In this document: piece by piece, positions 6,249 to 28,605 of the stretch
Layout: the number at the start of each line of letters is the position of its first letter
How positions within the stretch are numbered: the first letter of the stretch is position 1
From: Schlesneria sp. DSM 10557
GTDB lineage: Bacteria > Planctomycetota > Planctomycetia > Planctomycetales > Planctomycetaceae
DNA: 64,000 nt
Assembly: GCF_041860085.1 (NCBI RefSeq)
Contig: NZ_CP124747.1
Span: 6,037,001 to 6,101,000 of the forward strand
Reading direction: 5' to 3'
The notes under the pieces: model-generated
Told to the model about the DNA's origin: nothing
The model's input: the letters and a program-made list of their open reading frames with translations, nothing else
Database searches by the model: none
Program-made: the position numbers and the translations under genes

Positions 6249-7265
6249 TCACCGGGGCACGTTTTGTTTGAGAGGGTGCTTTTCAAAGAATTCCCAGATC
6301 AATTCGTTCGCAGAAATGTTGCGCGCACAGCGGCCCAGGAACGCAATGGGTACCTGACGACCGGGCCAGGTATGCCCACCGCCGTCGATGACAACCAGGA
6401 CCACGTCCGCTGCTGTCGCCTTCTGCGGGTAAGTACGACGGGTGACCGTTCGCTTGTCTCCTTCTCTGGAAAGCATGTCGACCTGACATTCTTCTTCGCA
6501 TCCATTGCGTTTAGCCCAATATGCGACCGTGTCTTCAGCACCAAGCAGTTGGAATACAGGTGGCGTTAGATTGATGGGGGAACCATAGGGGACGATCCCG
6601 TCACTCGTACCGTGAAAGTGCAGTACAGGGACAGCTCGAGGTGGTTCAGGGAGATCCATCGCCATCGTTCCCGAGACGGCCGCAATGGCGGCGATTCGGT
6701 CGGACATTTCTGAAGCCAGCCGATAGGACATCATTCCACCGTTACTCATCCCACAGGCATAGATCCGATTTCGATCGACGTTCGCGATTGATTCGAGTTC
6801 GTCCAGCAGATGTCCAATAAACGCGACATCGTCCGTTTTCTTTCCCTTCAGTCGGCTAATCAGGCCGCCAGCGTTCCACGTCCTCAGGGGACCGGGACCC
6901 GTACCGCTGGGATAGACGGCGATGAATCCTTTTGCGTCGGCGGTTTTATTCAGATTTGTGAACCAGACCATCATGGAACCATTCATGGCGGCACCATGCA
7001 GGGCCAGGACGACCGGCGTTGGTTTTTTAGGGTCATAGCCCGGAGGAACGTGCAGGATGTAGGATCGCTTCTCGGCACCGGAATTGAGATAACGTGAGTG
7101 GTCGCCGGGGGTCAGCGGTGTCGCGATGACGCTCTGGACCGTGGAAGCGGTCGGTGCTTCTTCTGTGCGGCCCAGCTCTGAGGTACTTCCCAGCACAACG
7201 ATGAACAGCAGAAACCTGCAGAGGCGACAGGTGTTTGATTCAAGGATTCCGAATGGACGATGCAA
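6249..7265 (-). CDS. Secreted PHB-depolymerase-like esterase (LpqC family)
   Basis: Exported alpha/beta hydrolase of the polyhydroxybutyrate depolymerase/feruloyl esterase group (LpqC-like), expected to hydrolyse ester bonds outside the cytoplasm. I place the start at the TTG at 7265 because a GGAGG sits 8 bases upstream and the next residues form a signal peptide (hydrophobic CRFLLFIVVLG). This gives 338 residues; an upstream in-frame extension to 7394 is possible but adds nothing family-like. The oxyanion region LALHGAAMNGS is followed by the nucleophile elbow GMSNGG (Ser174), the acid site HGTSDGIVPY (Asp222) and the His in GGGHTWPG. Substrate could be a polyester, acetyl or feruloyl ester; not decidable here. 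Confidence 0.85.
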   Translation of the reverse strand: MHRPFGILESNTCRLCRFLLFIVVLGSTSELGRTEEAPTASTVQSVIATPLTPGDHSRYLNSGAEKRSYILHVPPGYDPKKPTPVVLALHGAAMNGSMMVWFTNLNKTADAKGFIAVYPSGTGPGPLRTWNAGGLISRLKGKKTDDVAFIGHLLDELESIANVDRNRIYACGMSNGGMMSYRLASEMSDRIAAIAAVSGTMAMDLPEPPRAVPVLHFHGTSDGIVPYGSPINLTPPVFQLLGAEDTVAYWAKRNGCEEECQVDMLSREGDKRTVTRRTYPQKATAADVVLVVIDGGGHTWPGRQVPIAFLGRCARNISANELIWEFFEKHPLKQNVPR

Positions 7266-21855: not shown

Positions 21856-24800
21856 ATGAGGATTGCTCATTTTTTTATCGACCGGCCGATTTTCGCTGCG
21901 GTGATCTCTGTTGTTGTCACAATCTTCGGTGTGATTTCGTACCTGGCACTTCCCGCAGCCCAGTACCCCGACATTGTTCCTCCCACGATTGTCGTCCGCG
22001 CCAGTTACCCAGGTGCGTCTCCGGAAGTCATTGCCGATACGGTCGCCACTCCCATTGAACAGGAAGTCAATGGTGTCGAGCACATGCTCTACATGTCGTC
22101 GCAATGCACTGTGGATGGCCAGATGGAACTCACAGTGACATTCAAGTTGGGGACCGACCTTGATACGGCTCAGGTGCTGGTACAGAACCGCGTGGCGACC
22201 GCAATTCCGAGACTACCGGAGGAGGTCCGCCGGCAGGGGGTTACAACCACCAAATCGACGCCCGACATTCTGCTGGTGATCCATCTGGTTTCACCGGACA
22301 ACCGCTATGACCAGTTGTATCTGAGTAATTACGCATTGATTCAGGTTCGCGACGTTCTGGCTCGTGTCGATGGAGTGGGGGGGATCACGACGCCGGGGCT
22401 GCGCGAATACAGCATGCGGGTCTGGCTCGATCCTGAGAGGCTCTCGCACTTGTCATTGACTCCCGGCGAAGTCGTAAGTGCCATTCAGTCACAGAATCTT
22501 CAGGTCGCGTCAGGAGTCATCGGTCAGCCTCCCCAATCAAGCAAGGGCGATTTTCAGCTCACCGTAAAAACACTCGGTCGACTGATGGAACCGCAGCAGT
22601 TTGAAGACATGGTTGTGAGAACGGGTGACGATGGCCGTCTCGTTCGCCTGAGCGACATCGCGAGGATTGAACTGGGGGCTCGGGACTACACAATCAACAG
22701 CTACGTCGATGGAGAAACCGGTGTTGGGATGGCGATTTCGCAGCGGCCTGGCTCGAATGCTCTCGCCACTGCGGATGCATTGCAAAAGGCGATTGAGGAA
22801 CTCTCTAAGGATTTTCCGGAAGGACTGACGTACCGAATCGCCTACAACCCGACGGTTTTTGTGCGCGAATCGATCGACTCGGTGATTCATACACTCTACG
22901 AGGCTGCCCTCCTGGTGGTGATTGTAGTCCTGGTCTTTCTCCAGAACTGGCGTGCAACACTGATCCCGCTGCTCGCCATTCCTGTATCGCTGGTCGGTAC
23001 CTTTGCGGCAATGTACGCACTGGGATTTTCGCTGAACATGCTATCGCTATTCGGTCTGGTTCTGGCAATTGGAATTGTGGTCGACGATGCAATCGTGGTT
23101 GTCGAGAACGTCGAACGCCACATTCGCGCCGGTCTTTCTCCGCGCGAAGCGGCACACAAGGCGATGGACGAAGTCACGGCAGCTGTCATAGCGATTGCGG
23201 TGGGGTTGTCTGCTGTGTTTGTTCCCACCGCATTTATCACGGGCATCAGCGGGCAATTTTATCGACAGTTCGCTCTGACGATTGCTGTGTCCACATTGCT
23301 GTCGGCATTTGTTTCGTTGACCCTCAGTCCCGCGCTGTGCGCAATCCTCTTGCAATCGCATGATGAAAAGAAGGATTGGTTCGGTCGCGGTTGGGATTTT
23401 GTTTTCGGCTGGTTCTTTCGATCGTTCAACCAGATGTTTGACGGCCTCAGCAATGGCTACGCCCGGACTGTGGGATGGTTGTTACGTCGGTTAGCGTTGC
23501 CTCTATTCGCCTACGTGATCTTGATCGGACTAACCGGTTTCGGATTCAAATCGGTGCCGACGGGATTCATTCCGCGCCAGGATAAAGGCTACCTGATCAC
23601 AGTGATCCAACTTCCCGACGGCGCATCGCTAGCCCGAACCGACGAAATTGTTCGACGTGCCGGAGAAATTATTCGAAGCAACCCTGTTGTCGGCCATACG
23701 GTCGAGTTTGTTGGGTTCTCGGGAGCCGCCCGCTCTAACAATCCGAGTGCCGCGGTGATCTTTTTTGGCCCGTTGTTGCCGCATGAACGACACCACAAAC
23801 ATGATCACCCCAATATTCTGAATGAACTTTCCGATATCCAGCGAAAGCTTTCAGAGATTCCGGACGCGAATATTTTCGTCGTTCCGGCTCCCCCTGTTCA
23901 GGGTCTGGGGAACTCGGGAGGCTATAAGTTTCTGGTGCAGGACCGAGCCGGACACGGGGCGCGCGCTCTTCAGGAGGCAACTCAGGAACTCATTGCAGCG
24001 GCTCAGAAGGAACCCGCACTTTCAGGTGTCTTTACGATTTACGGTTCATCGACGCCCCAGGTTTTCGCCGATGTCGATCGGGTAAAAGCCTATATGCTGG
24101 ATATTCCCCTGACCAACGTTTTCGATACGCTGCAGGTCAATCTGGGCTCGGCGTACGCAAATGACTTCAATCTTTACGGACGCACATTTCAGGTTCGAGT
24201 TCAGGGCGAAGAAGAATTTCGTGATTCGATTGAAGACATCAATCAGCTGAAAACACGGAACTCGAATGGAGAAATGGTACCATTGGGCTCTGTGGTCGAT
24301 GTTCGCTGGGAAACGGGACCGGACCGGGTTGTGCGTTATAATATGTTCCCATCGGCCGAGGTACAGGGGGATACTGCGCCAGGGTTCAGTTCCGGGCAGG
24401 CTATCGCCACGATCGAACAGCTGGCCGGAAAGATCCTTCCTCAGGGGATGTCGATCGAATGGACTGATATCACGTATCAGGAACAGCTTGCAGGTAACAC
24501 GGCGCTGTTCATTTTTCCGTTGTGCGTCCTGTTTGTGTTCCTCGTGCATTCGGCGGAGTACGAGAGTTGGTCACTACCGCTCGCCATCATTCTGATCGCC
24601 CCCGTTTGTCTGCCGTTCGCGCTGGGTGGCGTCTGGTTGCGAGGGATGGACAACAACCTGATAACCCAAATCAGCTTTGTTGTACTGATCGGTCTCGCAG
24701 CCAAGAATGCTGTCTTGATTGTTGAGTTTGCCAAGCAACATGAAGAAGAAGGTCATAGCCCGATCGAGTCGGCGACAGAGGCGTGTCGACTTCGGCTGAG

Positions 24801-25062
24801 GCCGATCATCATGACATCGTTCGCGTTCATCCTGGGGGTTGTCCCCCTCGCCCGAGCGGTGGGGCCGGGATTCGAAATGCGACAGGTCTTGGGGACCGCG
24901 GTTCTCGCGGGAATGCTCGGCGTGACACTGTTCGGTCTTTTCCTGACGCCAGCATTCTATGTCACGCTGCGGAACGTTTCGAGCCGATTTTGGGGACGAG
25001 CCGAGCATCACTTAGGGAGACCTGTCGTGCGCTCGCACGTTCAACCAGAAACAGTGAGCTAG
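21856..25062 (+). CDS. RND multidrug efflux permease (HAE1/AcrB type)
   Basis: A 1068-residue inner-membrane proton-driven pump. The N-terminus MRIAHFFIDRPIFAAVISVV is the standard first membrane helix. Two periplasmic porter regions are separated by helices 2-6 and followed by helices 7-12. Proton relay residues are visible as the Asp pair in TM4 (AIGIVVDDAIVVVENVERH) and the Lys in TM10 (GLAAKNAVLIVEFAKQ). The Gly-rich GAASPEVI-type docking region reads here as PGASPEVIADTVATPIEQEVNGV. Hydrophobe or amphiphile efflux is expected. It follows the adaptor after 272 bases with no terminator seen, so it is probably in the same operon. Confidence 0.96.
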   Translation: MRIAHFFIDRPIFAAVISVVVTIFGVISYLALPAAQYPDIVPPTIVVRASYPGASPEVIADTVATPIEQEVNGVEHMLYMSSQCTVDGQMELTVTFKLGTDLDTAQVLVQNRVATAIPRLPEEVRRQGVTTTKSTPDILLVIHLVSPDNRYDQLYLSNYALIQVRDVLARVDGVGGITTPGLREYSMRVWLDPERLSHLSLTPGEVVSAIQSQNLQVASGVIGQPPQSSKGDFQLTVKTLGRLMEPQQFEDMVVRTGDDGRLVRLSDIARIELGARDYTINSYVDGETGVGMAISQRPGSNALATADALQKAIEELSKDFPEGLTYRIAYNPTVFVRESIDSVIHTLYEAALLVVIVVLVFLQNWRATLIPLLAIPVSLVGTFAAMYALGFSLNMLSLFGLVLAIGIVVDDAIVVVENVERHIRAGLSPREAAHKAMDEVTAAVIAIAVGLSAVFVPTAFITGISGQFYRQFALTIAVSTLLSAFVSLTLSPALCAILLQSHDEKKDWFGRGWDFVFGWFFRSFNQMFDGLSNGYARTVGWLLRRLALPLFAYVILIGLTGFGFKSVPTGFIPRQDKGYLITVIQLPDGASLARTDEIVRRAGEIIRSNPVVGHTVEFVGFSGAARSNNPSAAVIFFGPLLPHERHHKHDHPNILNELSDIQRKLSEIPDANIFVVPAPPVQGLGNSGGYKFLVQDRAGHGARALQEATQELIAAAQKEPALSGVFTIYGSSTPQVFADVDRVKAYMLDIPLTNVFDTLQVNLGSAYANDFNLYGRTFQVRVQGEEEFRDSIEDINQLKTRNSNGEMVPLGSVVDVRWETGPDRVVRYNMFPSAEVQGDTAPGFSSGQAIATIEQLAGKILPQGMSIEWTDITYQEQLAGNTALFIFPLCVLFVFLVHSAEYESWSLPLAIILIAPVCLPFALGGVWLRGMDNNLITQISFVVLIGLAAKNAVLIVEFAKQHEEEGHSPIESATEACRLRLRPIIMTSFAFILGVVPLARAVGPGFEMRQVLGTAVLAGMLGVTLFGLFLTPAFYVTLRNVSSRFWGRAEHHLGRPVVRSHVQPETVS

Positions 25063-25382
25063 TTTTAACTAACCCACGGGATGCAGGCTGGCTGAACTCC
25101 CACCGACGATTTGCCGCATGGCTTGATTCGGTAGTAACGCTGGTTTCGGAAACCGAAGGTGCACGGATCGGAACAATGCTTGATGGCAGCAGGAATCGGG
25201 CAGAACAGCGGCGACGACGGGCCTTTTTTCCCGATCTGTTCGCAATTCCGCCGGGGCCAATATAGTGTATTCCCCAGTGACGGTTGAGAAGCCTTTGCAT
25301 CAGTTTCCTGCTCAAAACGATGTGCATTTTCTCAGACCGTCTCCACTCGGCATTTTGATTTCCTACCTGCATGGTTCTCTTC
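25063..25382. other. Gap after the RND pump gene
   Basis: Gap of 320 bases. It holds a 13-base interrupted palindrome GGTTTC-G-GAAACC at 25142-25154 and should hold the promoter of the lactonase gene. I see no gene or T-tailed terminator. Confidence 0.4.
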
Positions 25383-26651
25383 ATGAAACAGTCTGACACG
25401 ACCCGCCGAAACTTTCTTAAAACGTCAATTGCGCTCGCGGGAGCGGTTCGATTGATGTCCAGTCTCGCCTCCGCTCAGACCGCAGATTCGGACCGCCCAC
25501 TGTTTGCTTATGTGGGAACGTTCAGTTCACCTTTGACGGATGTGCTGCCCACTCAGGTGGACCTTCCCCCCGGGAATGGTCGCGGGATTCATATTTTCAA
25601 AGTGAATCGATCCACGGGGGTGCTCGATCCTGCGGGTGAATTTCCGATGGGGACCAGTCCCAGTTGTCTCGCGCTGAACGCTACCGGGACCCGACTGTAT
25701 TCCGCGAACGAGACGGATCGGATTGGTACAACGAAAGAAGGGACCGTCAGTGCCTTTGCGGTCAACCAGCAGACGGGACAACTCGAACTGCTCAACACGA
25801 TTCGTTCCGGTGGTGCCGGTCCGACCTACGTGAGTGTCCATCCGAATGGCAAATTCCTGCTCGTCGCCAACTACTTCGGTGGTTCTGTCGCCGTTCTGCC
25901 GATCCTGGCCGATGGCAAGTTGGGTGAGCCGACCGACGTCAAGAATGACGCGGGCAAGATCGGTCCGACGAAGGCCGTCAATGCTCCCCCGGGCAGCTTC
26001 GCCATCAGCGGGCATGACCGAACGCATGCGCATATGATTCAGGCAGATCCTTCCGGTCGATTTGTGCTGCATATCGATCTTGGTCTTGATCAGATCCTCA
26101 TCTGGAAATTCGACGAAAAGAAAGGGACTCTGACCCCCGCTGCAACACCCTACGTGTCACTGCCCCCCGGTGATGGGCCTCGACACTTCCACTTCCATCC
26201 GAATGGCAAATGGTTCTATTCCATTCAGGAGGAAGGGTCGACGGTTGTGCTGTTTGACTATGACGGTGAAACAGGGCGCCTGACCGAACGCCAGACCATT
26301 TCAACACTTCCCAAAGGCTTCGCGGGCAGCAATTTCTGCTCAGAGATTCTCGTGAGTGCGGATGGCAAATTCCTCTACGCGGGGAACCGCCTGCACGACA
26401 GCATTGGGATCTTCTCTATTGGTGCTCAGGGTGAGCTGAGGTATCTCGGTGAAGAATGGACGCGGGGTGATTACCCGCGGAGTTTCAACGTCGATCCGTC
26501 GGGAAAATTCCTGTATAGCTGCAACCAGCGTGGCGACAACGTCGCACTTTTTGAAGTCAATCAGCAGACCGGCGGATTGCAGTTCACGGGTCACTACACG
26601 GCCGTCGGAAATCCCTCGATCATTATCTTCCTCGAACCGAATCAAAAGTGA
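25383..26651 (+). CDS. Tat-exported seven-bladed propeller lactonase (6-phosphogluconolactonase-type)
   Basis: A 422-residue protein of the lactonase family (PF10282 type, related to YbhE/Pgl of E. coli). The N-terminus MKQSDTTRRNFLKTSIALAGAVRL is a clear twin-arginine signal, so it acts outside the cytoplasm. Propeller repeats are visible as FAYVGTF, PSCLALNATGTRLYSANE, GPTYVSVHPNGKFLLVANYFGGSVAVLPI, DGPRHFHFHPNGKWFYSIQEEGSTV and YPRSFNVDPSGKFLYSCNQRGDNVALF. Its export argues against a housekeeping role in the pentose phosphate pathway; other sugar lactones are more likely substrates. The ATG at 25383 is preferred over an upstream start at 25371. A strong terminator follows. Confidence 0.92.
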   Translation: MKQSDTTRRNFLKTSIALAGAVRLMSSLASAQTADSDRPLFAYVGTFSSPLTDVLPTQVDLPPGNGRGIHIFKVNRSTGVLDPAGEFPMGTSPSCLALNATGTRLYSANETDRIGTTKEGTVSAFAVNQQTGQLELLNTIRSGGAGPTYVSVHPNGKFLLVANYFGGSVAVLPILADGKLGEPTDVKNDAGKIGPTKAVNAPPGSFAISGHDRTHAHMIQADPSGRFVLHIDLGLDQILIWKFDEKKGTLTPAATPYVSLPPGDGPRHFHFHPNGKWFYSIQEEGSTVVLFDYDGETGRLTERQTISTLPKGFAGSNFCSEILVSADGKFLYAGNRLHDSIGIFSIGAQGELRYLGEEWTRGDYPRSFNVDPSGKFLYSCNQRGDNVALFEVNQQTGGLQFTGHYTAVGNPSIIIFLEPNQK

Positions 26652-26829: not shown

Positions 26830-27600
26830 TCAGACTTGGGATGGCTTCGAGCTCTGATCTTTAGAGACGGCGCGGATCAAGGCATCGATTCGGACCGGTT
26901 TTGAAATCCAGCCGTCGAGTTGCAGCGGCTCTGAATCAAACTCGTTGCGCGATGAACCACTGACAGCGAATACCCGCAAGTCGTGCAGTCTCAGATCACT
27001 TCGGACCGACTTAAGAAAAGTCGGGCCGTCGACATCGGGCATTCGCATATCGAGTAGAACAATATCCGGCAGTTCATGTTCGTGAAGGTAATCGAAGGCT
27101 TCGCGTCCGTTGCCCGCGGTGGCGACTTCGAACCCGCCGAGTCGAAGGCACGTTGCGAGTAGTTCACGTTCGTTTGCCTGATCTTCGACGATGAGAACCT
27201 TGGGTGTTGTCGACTTGGCCTCGACAACGGCGTCGTGAGTGGCCCGCTCTAAATCAGAAAATTCGCGTAAAACTTCGCTGAGGTTGGCTTCGAGATCGAC
27301 CGTTTCACCGATTTCAATTTTCCGTTGAAGCAACTGAAGCTTCAGCATTCCCAGGTTAAGTTTATTTCTCCAGGCGTGGCTCAGTTCTCGCACTTCCTTC
27401 GTCATTTTCGAAGTCGGAGCAGGGGAACGAGAAGCAGAGTCGGAGCTGTTATCCAGCACTTCTTCCCGGAGCACTTTGACGTCGTTGGGGGCCTCGATTC
27501 CGAGTCGAACGACAGAACCTGCGGAACGAAGGACATCGATCGTGATGCCCAGTCCGGGAAAGACCACTCTCTGTCCCGGGCGTCGAGATAGTACGAGCAT
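26830..27600 (-). CDS. CsrA-like domain fused to H-box-like helix and receiver domain
   Basis: A 256-residue fusion. Residues 1-48 are a CsrA-like RNA-binding domain: MLVLSRRPGQRVVF, GITIDVL, VVRLGIEAPNDVKVLREEV. The RNA-contact residues Leu4, Arg6 and Arg45 (equivalent of CsrA Arg44) are kept. Residues 66-125 are helical and contain LSHAWRNKLNLG, which resembles a HisKA H-box with His75, but no HATPase domain follows. Residues 133-250 are a receiver: Glu139/Asp140, phospho-acceptor Asp184 (IVLLDMRMPDVDG), switch Ser214, Lys234 (ISKPVR). CsrA normally is a ~60-residue dimer that blocks or activates translation at GGA sites; here phosphorylation could gate RNA binding. The start ATG at 27600 begins the CsrA domain exactly; a 7-residue extension is spurious. 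No CsrA antagonist such as FliW is nearby. Confidence 0.88.
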   Translation of the reverse strand: MLVLSRRPGQRVVFPGLGITIDVLRSAGSVVRLGIEAPNDVKVLREEVLDNSSDSASRSPAPTSKMTKEVRELSHAWRNKLNLGMLKLQLLQRKIEIGETVDLEANLSEVLREFSDLERATHDAVVEAKSTTPKVLIVEDQANERELLATCLRLGGFEVATAGNGREAFDYLHEHELPDIVLLDMRMPDVDGPTFLKSVRSDLRLHDLRVFAVSGSSRNEFDSEPLQLDGWISKPVRIDALIRAVSKDQSSKPSQV

Positions 27601-28605
27601 TAGATAACCCTTCCATGGCAAGTAACCAGGCGCATGACCAATGGTATGTGGCAGGTCGCTGCGATTATCAGGGTAAGAGCCTCTTGCCCACGTCTACACA
27701 TCCGTGCGGACCCCGACAATCCTTCTTGCTGCAGATTCTATACGACGCAGTACGAAGTTCAATAGCGATCCCGATTTAGGGAGAACCGACCACCAAAACT
27801 TCGCTCTATGGGGGCAAGTGTCGCCTGCAAACATTCTCCAGCGACTCGCCCGCAGTTCATCGAGTAACACGCTGAGAACGACGTTCCCGGGTCGTGCCAT
27901 CGAAGACTAAAAAACGCTGCATTTCGATTGTTAAGTCCACATCGTTTTACAGGGGATAGAGGCGGGTTACGTTGAGAGGTGTGCTATGTAAAGACGGCAT
28001 TTGCGTTCGTGGGCAGTCGTAGGAGAAGGAATCTTGACGTCAGAGTGAATCGCCCAATCAGCCGCTTTTGAGGTTTGATTACGGCCCTCACGTGTCGCCG
28101 TCCACCATCGCCAATTCGGTCTCTGAACGAAGTCGAATTCGCGTTGAACCGCTGAGGGGGCCGAAGGCGTTCGTCGATGAATCGCCAACTCGGATCTGTG
28201 GCATCCGACCCGATCGCTACGACGGATCTCTTGATTCTTCCGGGCGCTTTTCGGTGACAGTTCGAAACCTTGAAGGAGCACGCCGAGACTGGCCCGGTGG
28301 TCGGGACTTGGTGTGTACTCTCTACTTGGAGGTGCATGTCAGAGGCGGCGTCGGAGATTTCTCGAATGAGGGTCCATCGTAGGTGGGCTTTCCATTTTGG
28401 TCGGAACCGGTTCCGTTCAATTGGTCAAATGAACAGTTGTCGGCCTTGATCCGAAAGCCGACCGGCGAGCAAGACATATTGCCGATTCTGCCGAAATGAA
28501 ATAGAAGCCTCGTCCCGTCATTTTGGATTGCACATCGCGACTGACCCGTGACATTCTGTTGCGTCCCCGTCAGTCTCGCCGAGGGTTTCATCGAGGCGTC
28601 GTTCA
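27601..28605. other. 1-kb intergenic region upstream of the CsrA-receiver gene
   Basis: About 1 kb with no convincing gene on either strand. Several short open frames exist (for example 28068-28382 plus) but lack domain-like sequence or ribosome binding sites. It must contain the promoter of the CsrA-receiver gene (minus) and of the lipoprotein gene (plus). I looked for a dense series of GGA hairpin loops as in CsrB-type RNAs and did not find one. Confidence 0.4.

Follow-up and report, generated by a model that had tools for sequence, protein, structure and literature searches.

The window is the whole stretch of 64,000 nt of DNA that was analysed, and it comes from the genome that we designate G000; other genomes carry G numbers and individual loci L numbers. 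On its minus strand lies a gene whose product joins a CsrA RNA-binding domain, a helical hairpin and a receiver domain in a single polypeptide, with the following features.

26830..27600, minus strand: CsrA-DHp-REC fusion gene, 256 aa plus stop (translation, Pfam, homologues)
27448..27600, minus strand: CsrA RNA-binding domain, residues 1-51, with Leu4, Arg6 and Arg45 (PF02599, E 1.4e-15)
27223..27399, minus strand: hairpin of two helices, residues 68-126, resembling a HisKA DHp domain but lacking the ATPase (AlphaFold2, hhalign)
27376..27378, minus strand: codon of His75, the proposed phosphotransfer histidine (conservation, and alignment to the HisKA phosphoacceptor His)
27364..27366, minus strand: codon of Asn79, the His+4 position (present in 89/99 members, and in 87/90 of those with His75)
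26866..27198, minus strand: receiver domain, residues 135-245 (Pfam Response_reg, E 6e-19)
27049..27051, minus strand: codon of Asp184, the receiver phosphoacceptor (98/99 members)
26899..26901, minus strand: codon of Lys234 (96/99 members)
27609..27618, minus strand: leader CC-ATGGAA-GG, an ANGGAN hexaloop over the Shine-Dalgarno sequence, with a stem of only 2 bp in the window copy

An earlier note on this DNA, made from the letters alone, had read a CsrA domain, a helical segment with His75 and a receiver in one 256-residue chain; translation and Pfam searches confirm this architecture, and Leu4, Arg6, Arg45, His75, Asp184 and Lys234, the residues that it named, are all present in the translation. 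The CsrA domain scores 57.4 bits against a Pfam cut-off of 27 (PF02599), and the protein misses the NCBIfam CsrA equivalog cut-offs of 73 and 70.1 with scores of 43 and 38.6; its Arg45 we take to be the equivalent of Arg44 in Escherichia coli CsrA. His75 sits in the motif LSHAWRNKLN, within the first of two helices that AlphaFold2 places at residues 68-96 and 103-126, and the receiver is complete by Pfam and translation, with the acidic pair E139 and D140 followed by D184, S214 and K234. The protein has no Pfam match to HATPase and none to Hpt (PF01627) at E<=1, and none of the seven places found in a genome-wide Hpt search is the fusion gene. The neighbouring genes at 21856-25062 and 25371-26651 appear from their translations to encode an RND-type transporter and a lactonase-like beta-propeller protein, and we see no link between either of them and the fusion gene.

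The fusion protein is a real, conserved family. Among 59 related genomes there are 21 matches at E<=1e-15, the window gene included, of which 19 cover the whole protein in the same domain order and two the receiver only; the shared span and order of these 19 place the fusion beyond chance. At E<=1e-22, at least 74 of 297 genomes of the class have a match, which in G578 is confined to the receiver; this is a lower bound because nine candidates were scored per genome. In an even draw of 392 genomes across the phylum, in which the scoring of ten candidates per genome may undercount, at least 16 match a profile of CsrA plus hairpin, all within the window's own family or class. A contig scan gave, among the matches listed, 80 loci, of which 16 (L030-L045) span CsrA to receiver or nearly so, with L044 cut by a contig end and L041 matched to residue 223; among the matches listed, 15 of these 16 are from planctomycetes, and the other 64 loci, from many phyla, match in the receiver or little more. 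Full-length members occur in strain-level records of Lacipirellula limnantheis and Bythopirellula polymerisocia, and of the 492 plasmid records that match, none covers more than 80% of the query.

The members share a conserved ATG start, with the exceptions of L123 (GTG), L126 and the truncated L044, and in most of them a Shine-Dalgarno GGA precedes it, from which we conclude that the CsrA domain is part of the expressed protein; the late start that the earlier note had named among its possible refutations, which would leave the CsrA domain untranslated, is not seen across the family. The start of L126 appears to be ATT, which is unusual for a coding start. A chance fusion, a frame error and a late start were each considered as explanations of the window gene and are ruled out by the recurrence of the three-part protein, with its conserved start, across many genomes.

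Residue conservation was counted in 99 non-duplicate members (102 loci minus three duplicates). In the CsrA domain, L4 is present in 81, R6 in 97 and R45 in 97; H75 is found in 90 and N79 in 89, and in the receiver D184 is kept in 98 and K234 in 96. An FP motif occupies an early CsrA loop (F14 in 26/30 and P15 in 30/30 members). Trp231 (26908-26910), three residues before the receiver lysine, is kept in 98/99 members, at the position where receivers usually carry their aromatic switch residue.

The hairpin between the two recognisable domains resembles the DHp domains of HisKA kinases, though it comes without an ATPase. Searched with a profile built from 14 middle segments, genome G000 yields the fusion gene first (E 1.3e-21) and then two HisKA kinases (E 1.6e-4 and 0.091), both found independently in a HisKA domain search of the genome, followed by two matches at 0.3-0.4. 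(The segment sets, A1 with 16 of the 19 first relatives and A2 with these 14, omit the degenerate, His-less L027 and near-copies.) When 28 middle segments (30 minus two that lack His75) are compared by hhalign with 30 of the 38 HisKA domains of the genome, the probability is 96.9 with E 1.6e-10, for a single comparison, and the 35 aligned columns, mainly in the first helix, place His75 on the HisKA phosphoacceptor histidine; reversing either side of this comparison as a control gives probabilities of 2.2 and 5.3, and with all 30 segments the values are 96.5 and 7.2e-10. Single sequences are less telling: at E<=10, Pfam finds HisKA in four of the 14 segments (best 0.0023), SPOB_a in two (best 0.034) and ten other families in one segment each, the window segment alone has no Pfam match at that threshold, and a structure search with the hairpin alone is unspecific.

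His75 and Asn79 are the sole invariant columns in the 14 middle segments. HisKA kinases have an acid at His+1, which is needed for autokinase activity, and an asparagine at His+4, which assists dephosphorylation. The +1 residue of the 90 His75-positive members is variable (D21, A20, E19, Q8, K7, R4, G4, L4, S3), and because this position is free the conservation of His75 is of the phosphotransfer or phosphatase type, and not that of a kinase. A conserved His75/Asn79 pair with a free +1 position suggests phosphotransfer without autokinase activity. The hairpin region itself is retained even in members without His75.

An all-against-all comparison of the genes around 15 relatives and the window copy gives one recurrent partner, at nine loci, a long protein with the order CheB-CheR-PAS-HisKA-HATPase-REC (by Pfam of one copy), and in an enlarged set this CheB-CheR kinase is found at 25 of 45 loci. 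It occurs on either side of the fusion gene and in either orientation, so a single inherited layout does not account for the pairing. Among the first 46 loci, the nearest kinase is a hybrid, within 1.5 kb, in 35/42 of those with both His75 and Asn79 and in 0/4 of those without. In the full set of 99 loci a histidine kinase lies within 1 kb of the fusion in 73, and 51 of these 73 are CheB-CheR fusions. The nearest kinase within 1 kb carries a REC domain at 64 of the 90 His75-positive loci, lacks one at four and is absent at 22; the corresponding numbers for the nine His75-negative loci are 0, 5 and 4. For loci that have a kinase the comparison is 64/68 against 0/5 (Fisher 8e-6 over 73 loci, a value that ignores relatedness).

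The prediction that a hybrid kinase accompanies the histidine motif was set down before 56 further regions were analysed by profile search. With three duplicates removed, the 53 fresh loci include 47 His75-positive ones (REC 30, kinase without REC 4, no kinase 13) and six His75-negative ones (0, 4 and 2). A limit of 1.5 kb gives the same trend, with 65 REC-bearing kinases, one with a receiver that is not behind the ATPase, five without REC and 19 loci without kinase for His75-positive members, and 0, 0, 5 and 4 for the negative ones. At two of the negative loci without a kinase, L246 and L251, a flank is shorter than 1 kb, and Pfam confirms the missing receiver in the kinases of L192, L241, L244, L247 and L250. 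Four genomes (G383, G467, G660 and G563) hold both kinds of fusion, and in each the His75-positive copy is nearest a REC-bearing CheB-CheR kinase and the His75-negative copy nearest a REC-less one. If the count takes in every hybrid kinase within 1 kb and not just the nearest kinase, the figures are 64/90 for His75-positive loci and 2/9 for His75-negative ones (L192 at 787 bp and L247 at 771 bp).

There are four His75-positive loci whose nearest kinase lacks REC. At L212 the REC of the kinase is in a shifted frame, and at L238, L239 and L242 a separate receiver ORF lies between kinase and fusion; in a post hoc reading all four are accounted for in this way. The L212 kinase, a CheB-CheR protein at L212:3083-7375 with the frame-shifted receiver at 6315-7136, reflects either an assembly error or a real frameshift. 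Of the 22 His75-positive loci without a kinase within 1 kb, the window among them, 14 have at least 5 kb of flank on both sides. In some genomes two or three paralogues of the fusion lie close to several CheB-CheR genes (L192, L193, L231, L232, L241, L244, L247, L252), some of which have kinase and receiver, some no receiver and some no kinase.

In a tree of 91 rows, which leaves out 11 rows (duplicates, near-copies, L044 and L246), the loss of His75 takes four changes. One clade holds four of the five informative negatives, and the fifth, L250, adjoins a HAMP kinase and a regulator that appear to be an ordinary pair, so the independent matched events number at most two. Taken together, the neighbourhoods provide good but not conclusive evidence that His75 would take its phosphate from the receiver of the partner kinase.

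The known CsrA target, according to the accessible part of PMC10729762, is a hairpin that presents A(N)GGA over the ribosome site. The leaders of the relatives hold hairpins of this type: the Shine-Dalgarno GGA lies in a loop closed by a stem of 3 bp or more in 25/40 leaders against 7/67 other ORFs, and 11/40 against 0/67 have such a stem under an exact ANGGAN hexaloop, the controls being mechanical ORFs with script-chosen starts from the window and 15 loci and the 40 leaders coming from more loci. With the register fixed at (-4,+5), 30 of 39 leaders pair, by G-C, C-G and A-T types, against 17 expected after a shuffle that leaves relatedness in place. RNAalifold, given 33 hand-picked leaders aligned with MAFFT, predicts no pairs, and the pairing in the 39 appeared once the register was fixed on the Shine-Dalgarno GGA.

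The signal is weaker in 45 fresh leaders (the 53 fresh loci minus six without a GGA core, one duplicate and one without a recognisable start), with (-3,+4) pairing in 19/45 (p 0.004), (-4,+5) in 32/45 (p 0.049) and (-5,+6) in 34/45 (p 0.024), and a slid register of (-4,+6) scores too (36/45, p 0.0035). When both strands of 46 loci are scanned for a hairpin of this type ahead of a start and an ORF of 80 or more codons, 27 places are found, and a hand count that includes near-copies assigns 14 of them to fusion gene starts. Because these hairpins match the known type of CsrA target, it is likely that CsrA exerts autoregulation or cross-regulation in the relatives. The leader hairpin of the window copy is weak, consisting of CC-ATGGAA-GG alone.

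We think it fairly probable that the fusion combines the second half of a four-step phosphorelay with its output. In this scheme the neighbouring hybrid kinase of the relatives, mostly of the CheB-CheR-PAS-HisKA-HATPase-REC type, would phosphorylate its own histidine and then its own receiver aspartate; the phosphate would pass from the kinase receiver to His75 on a DHp-like four-helix bundle, in a step like that of Spo0B though without an ATPase, and from His75 to Asp184 of the fusion's own receiver. The DHp bundle would dimerise beside the CsrA dimer, and the receiver, by docking or being released, would alter the access of mRNA to the CsrA surface. The RNA targets of CsrA would be ANGGA hairpins that cover Shine-Dalgarno sites, among them, in many relatives, the site of the fusion gene itself. 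We infer the phosphotransfer steps, the dimer geometry, the RNA binding and the sign of phosphate's effect on repression. A sensor kinase would thereby probably control translation directly through the fusion. The suggestion in the earlier note that a phosphorelay feeds into CsrA, with His75 taking up or handing on phosphate, gains comparative support from the DHp likeness, from the conservation of His75 and Asn79 and from the way His75 tracks the receiver of the nearest kinase.

The same observations can be set against other schemes. The fusion could be an ordinary response regulator with an RNA-binding output, in which the kinase phosphorylates Asp184 directly, the hairpin is a dimerisation spacer and the kinase receiver is autoinhibitory. 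Six of the nine His75-negative members retain both Asp184 and Lys234, the hairpin outlasts the loss of His75, the 22/90 His75-positive loci described above have no kinase within 1 kb, and an inhibitory receiver has been proposed for RsbK (in the portion of PMC4574943 available), all of which speak for such a regulator. Against it stand the conservation of His75 and Asn79, which far exceeds that of the other hairpin positions, and the way His75 tracks the receiver of the nearest kinase. A spacer requires neither, and we consider direct phosphorylation rather unlikely. The asparagine at His+4 in 87/90 His75-positive members, with the +1 residue free, would also fit a phosphatase site of the HxxxN type, acting on Asp184~P or on the receiver of the partner kinase and setting the lifetime of the signal, but this by itself leaves the loss of the histidine beside receiver-less nearest kinases unaccounted for, and we regard it as improbable.

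The window copy raises a separate issue. No kinase is found in 25 kb around it (flanks of 11.8 kb and 12.4 kb), whereas its four nearest relatives (L030, L031, L165, L197) adjoin a hybrid kinase. It shares no gene order with these four, and the ORFs of their loci, besides the fusion, have weak matches of 24-36% identity elsewhere in the window; a search of 20 kb beside the gene for a remnant of the CheB-CheR kinase gives nothing beyond the similarity of the fusion's own receiver. CheR is found at three places only in the genome, and because all three are in short frames (288, 341 and 297 aa) there is no sign of a CheB-CheR kinase fusion in G000. The genome has 12 CsrA-domain places, 11 of them above the Pfam cut-off and several with C-terminal extensions, and no match to FliW. 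The window gene may be read as a constitutive CsrA paralogue, one among a dozen, and the missing kinase, the short CheR frames, the lack of shared gene order and the weak leader stem would all suit such an orphan; yet every key residue of the copy is intact, the 38 HisKA matches in the genome could supply phosphate, and we find this reading unlikely. With no kinase neighbour and no CheB-CheR kinase fusion in the genome, the phosphate donor would be another hybrid kinase, and the window copy is best called an orphaned member that would need one.

Returning to the four-step relay, we lean slightly towards a broader proposal, that planctomycetes have made CsrA part of multistep phosphorelays through its fusion to the entire His-Asp second half: a CheB-CheR hybrid kinase tuned by methylation would set translation without a transcription factor or sponge sRNA, His75 would be kept or lost with the intermediate receiver of the partner, and the fusion would repress itself through the ANGGAN hairpin. 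As far as the available text of PMC7652899 goes, CsrA is controlled by sRNAs, FliW or CesT, its activity being set by sponge RNAs and by the protein antagonists FliW and CesT, and two-component systems reach it one step removed, through sRNA transcription. The earlier note had left it undecided whether the fusion is a well-known and common planctomycete protein: it is common in the class (the at least 74/297 genomes above), and no description of CsrA fused to a receiver was found in the literature searched, in which subscription journals are thinly covered and an earlier mention, for example in a domain census, is possible. The modules are known; the combination and its wiring are new as far as the literature searched. 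If the proposal is true, a CsrA with its own phosphotransfer histidine and receiver would represent direct phosphorylation control of a translation regulator. A kinase partner, residues for mutation and, as a candidate RNA target, the gene's own leader in relatives can now be named.

Each part of this arrangement has a counterpart in a known system. CsrA is a small free-standing dimer; the fusion shares with CsrA/RsmA (PF02599) the CsrA domain, the RNA-contact residues Leu4, Arg6 and Arg45 and, in its relatives, leaders with ANGGA hairpins, and differs in that CsrA is one domain of a 256-residue protein and has the FP motif in its early loop. The histidine of Spo0B, in the Spo0F-Spo0B-Spo0A relay, takes phosphate from one receiver and hands it to another, and lies in the motif HDWMNKLQ. 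The fusion likewise has a DHp-type hairpin with a histidine, but unlike Spo0B it has no pseudo-ATPase (Pfam finds no degenerate ATPase, and the gap between the hairpin, which extends to 126, and the receiver, which starts at 134, is too short for one), and its histidine and the final receiver are in one chain with CsrA. With the HisKA kinases (PF00512) it shares a DHp hairpin with H-x-x-x-N, whereas it lacks HATPase and does not conserve the acid at His+1. The ANTAR response regulators of the AmiR/NasT type consist of a receiver and an RNA-binding antitermination domain, and so couple a receiver to an RNA-binding output as the fusion does, but with antitermination in place of CsrA and no built-in phosphotransfer histidine. 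On the kinase side, a logic resembling that of the CheB-CheR kinases beside many relatives is found in RsbK/RsbM of Bacillus cereus, a methylation-controlled hybrid kinase whose output, in contrast, is a PP2C phosphatase and whose receiver is proposed, in what is accessible of PMC4574943, to be inhibitory rather than a relay step.
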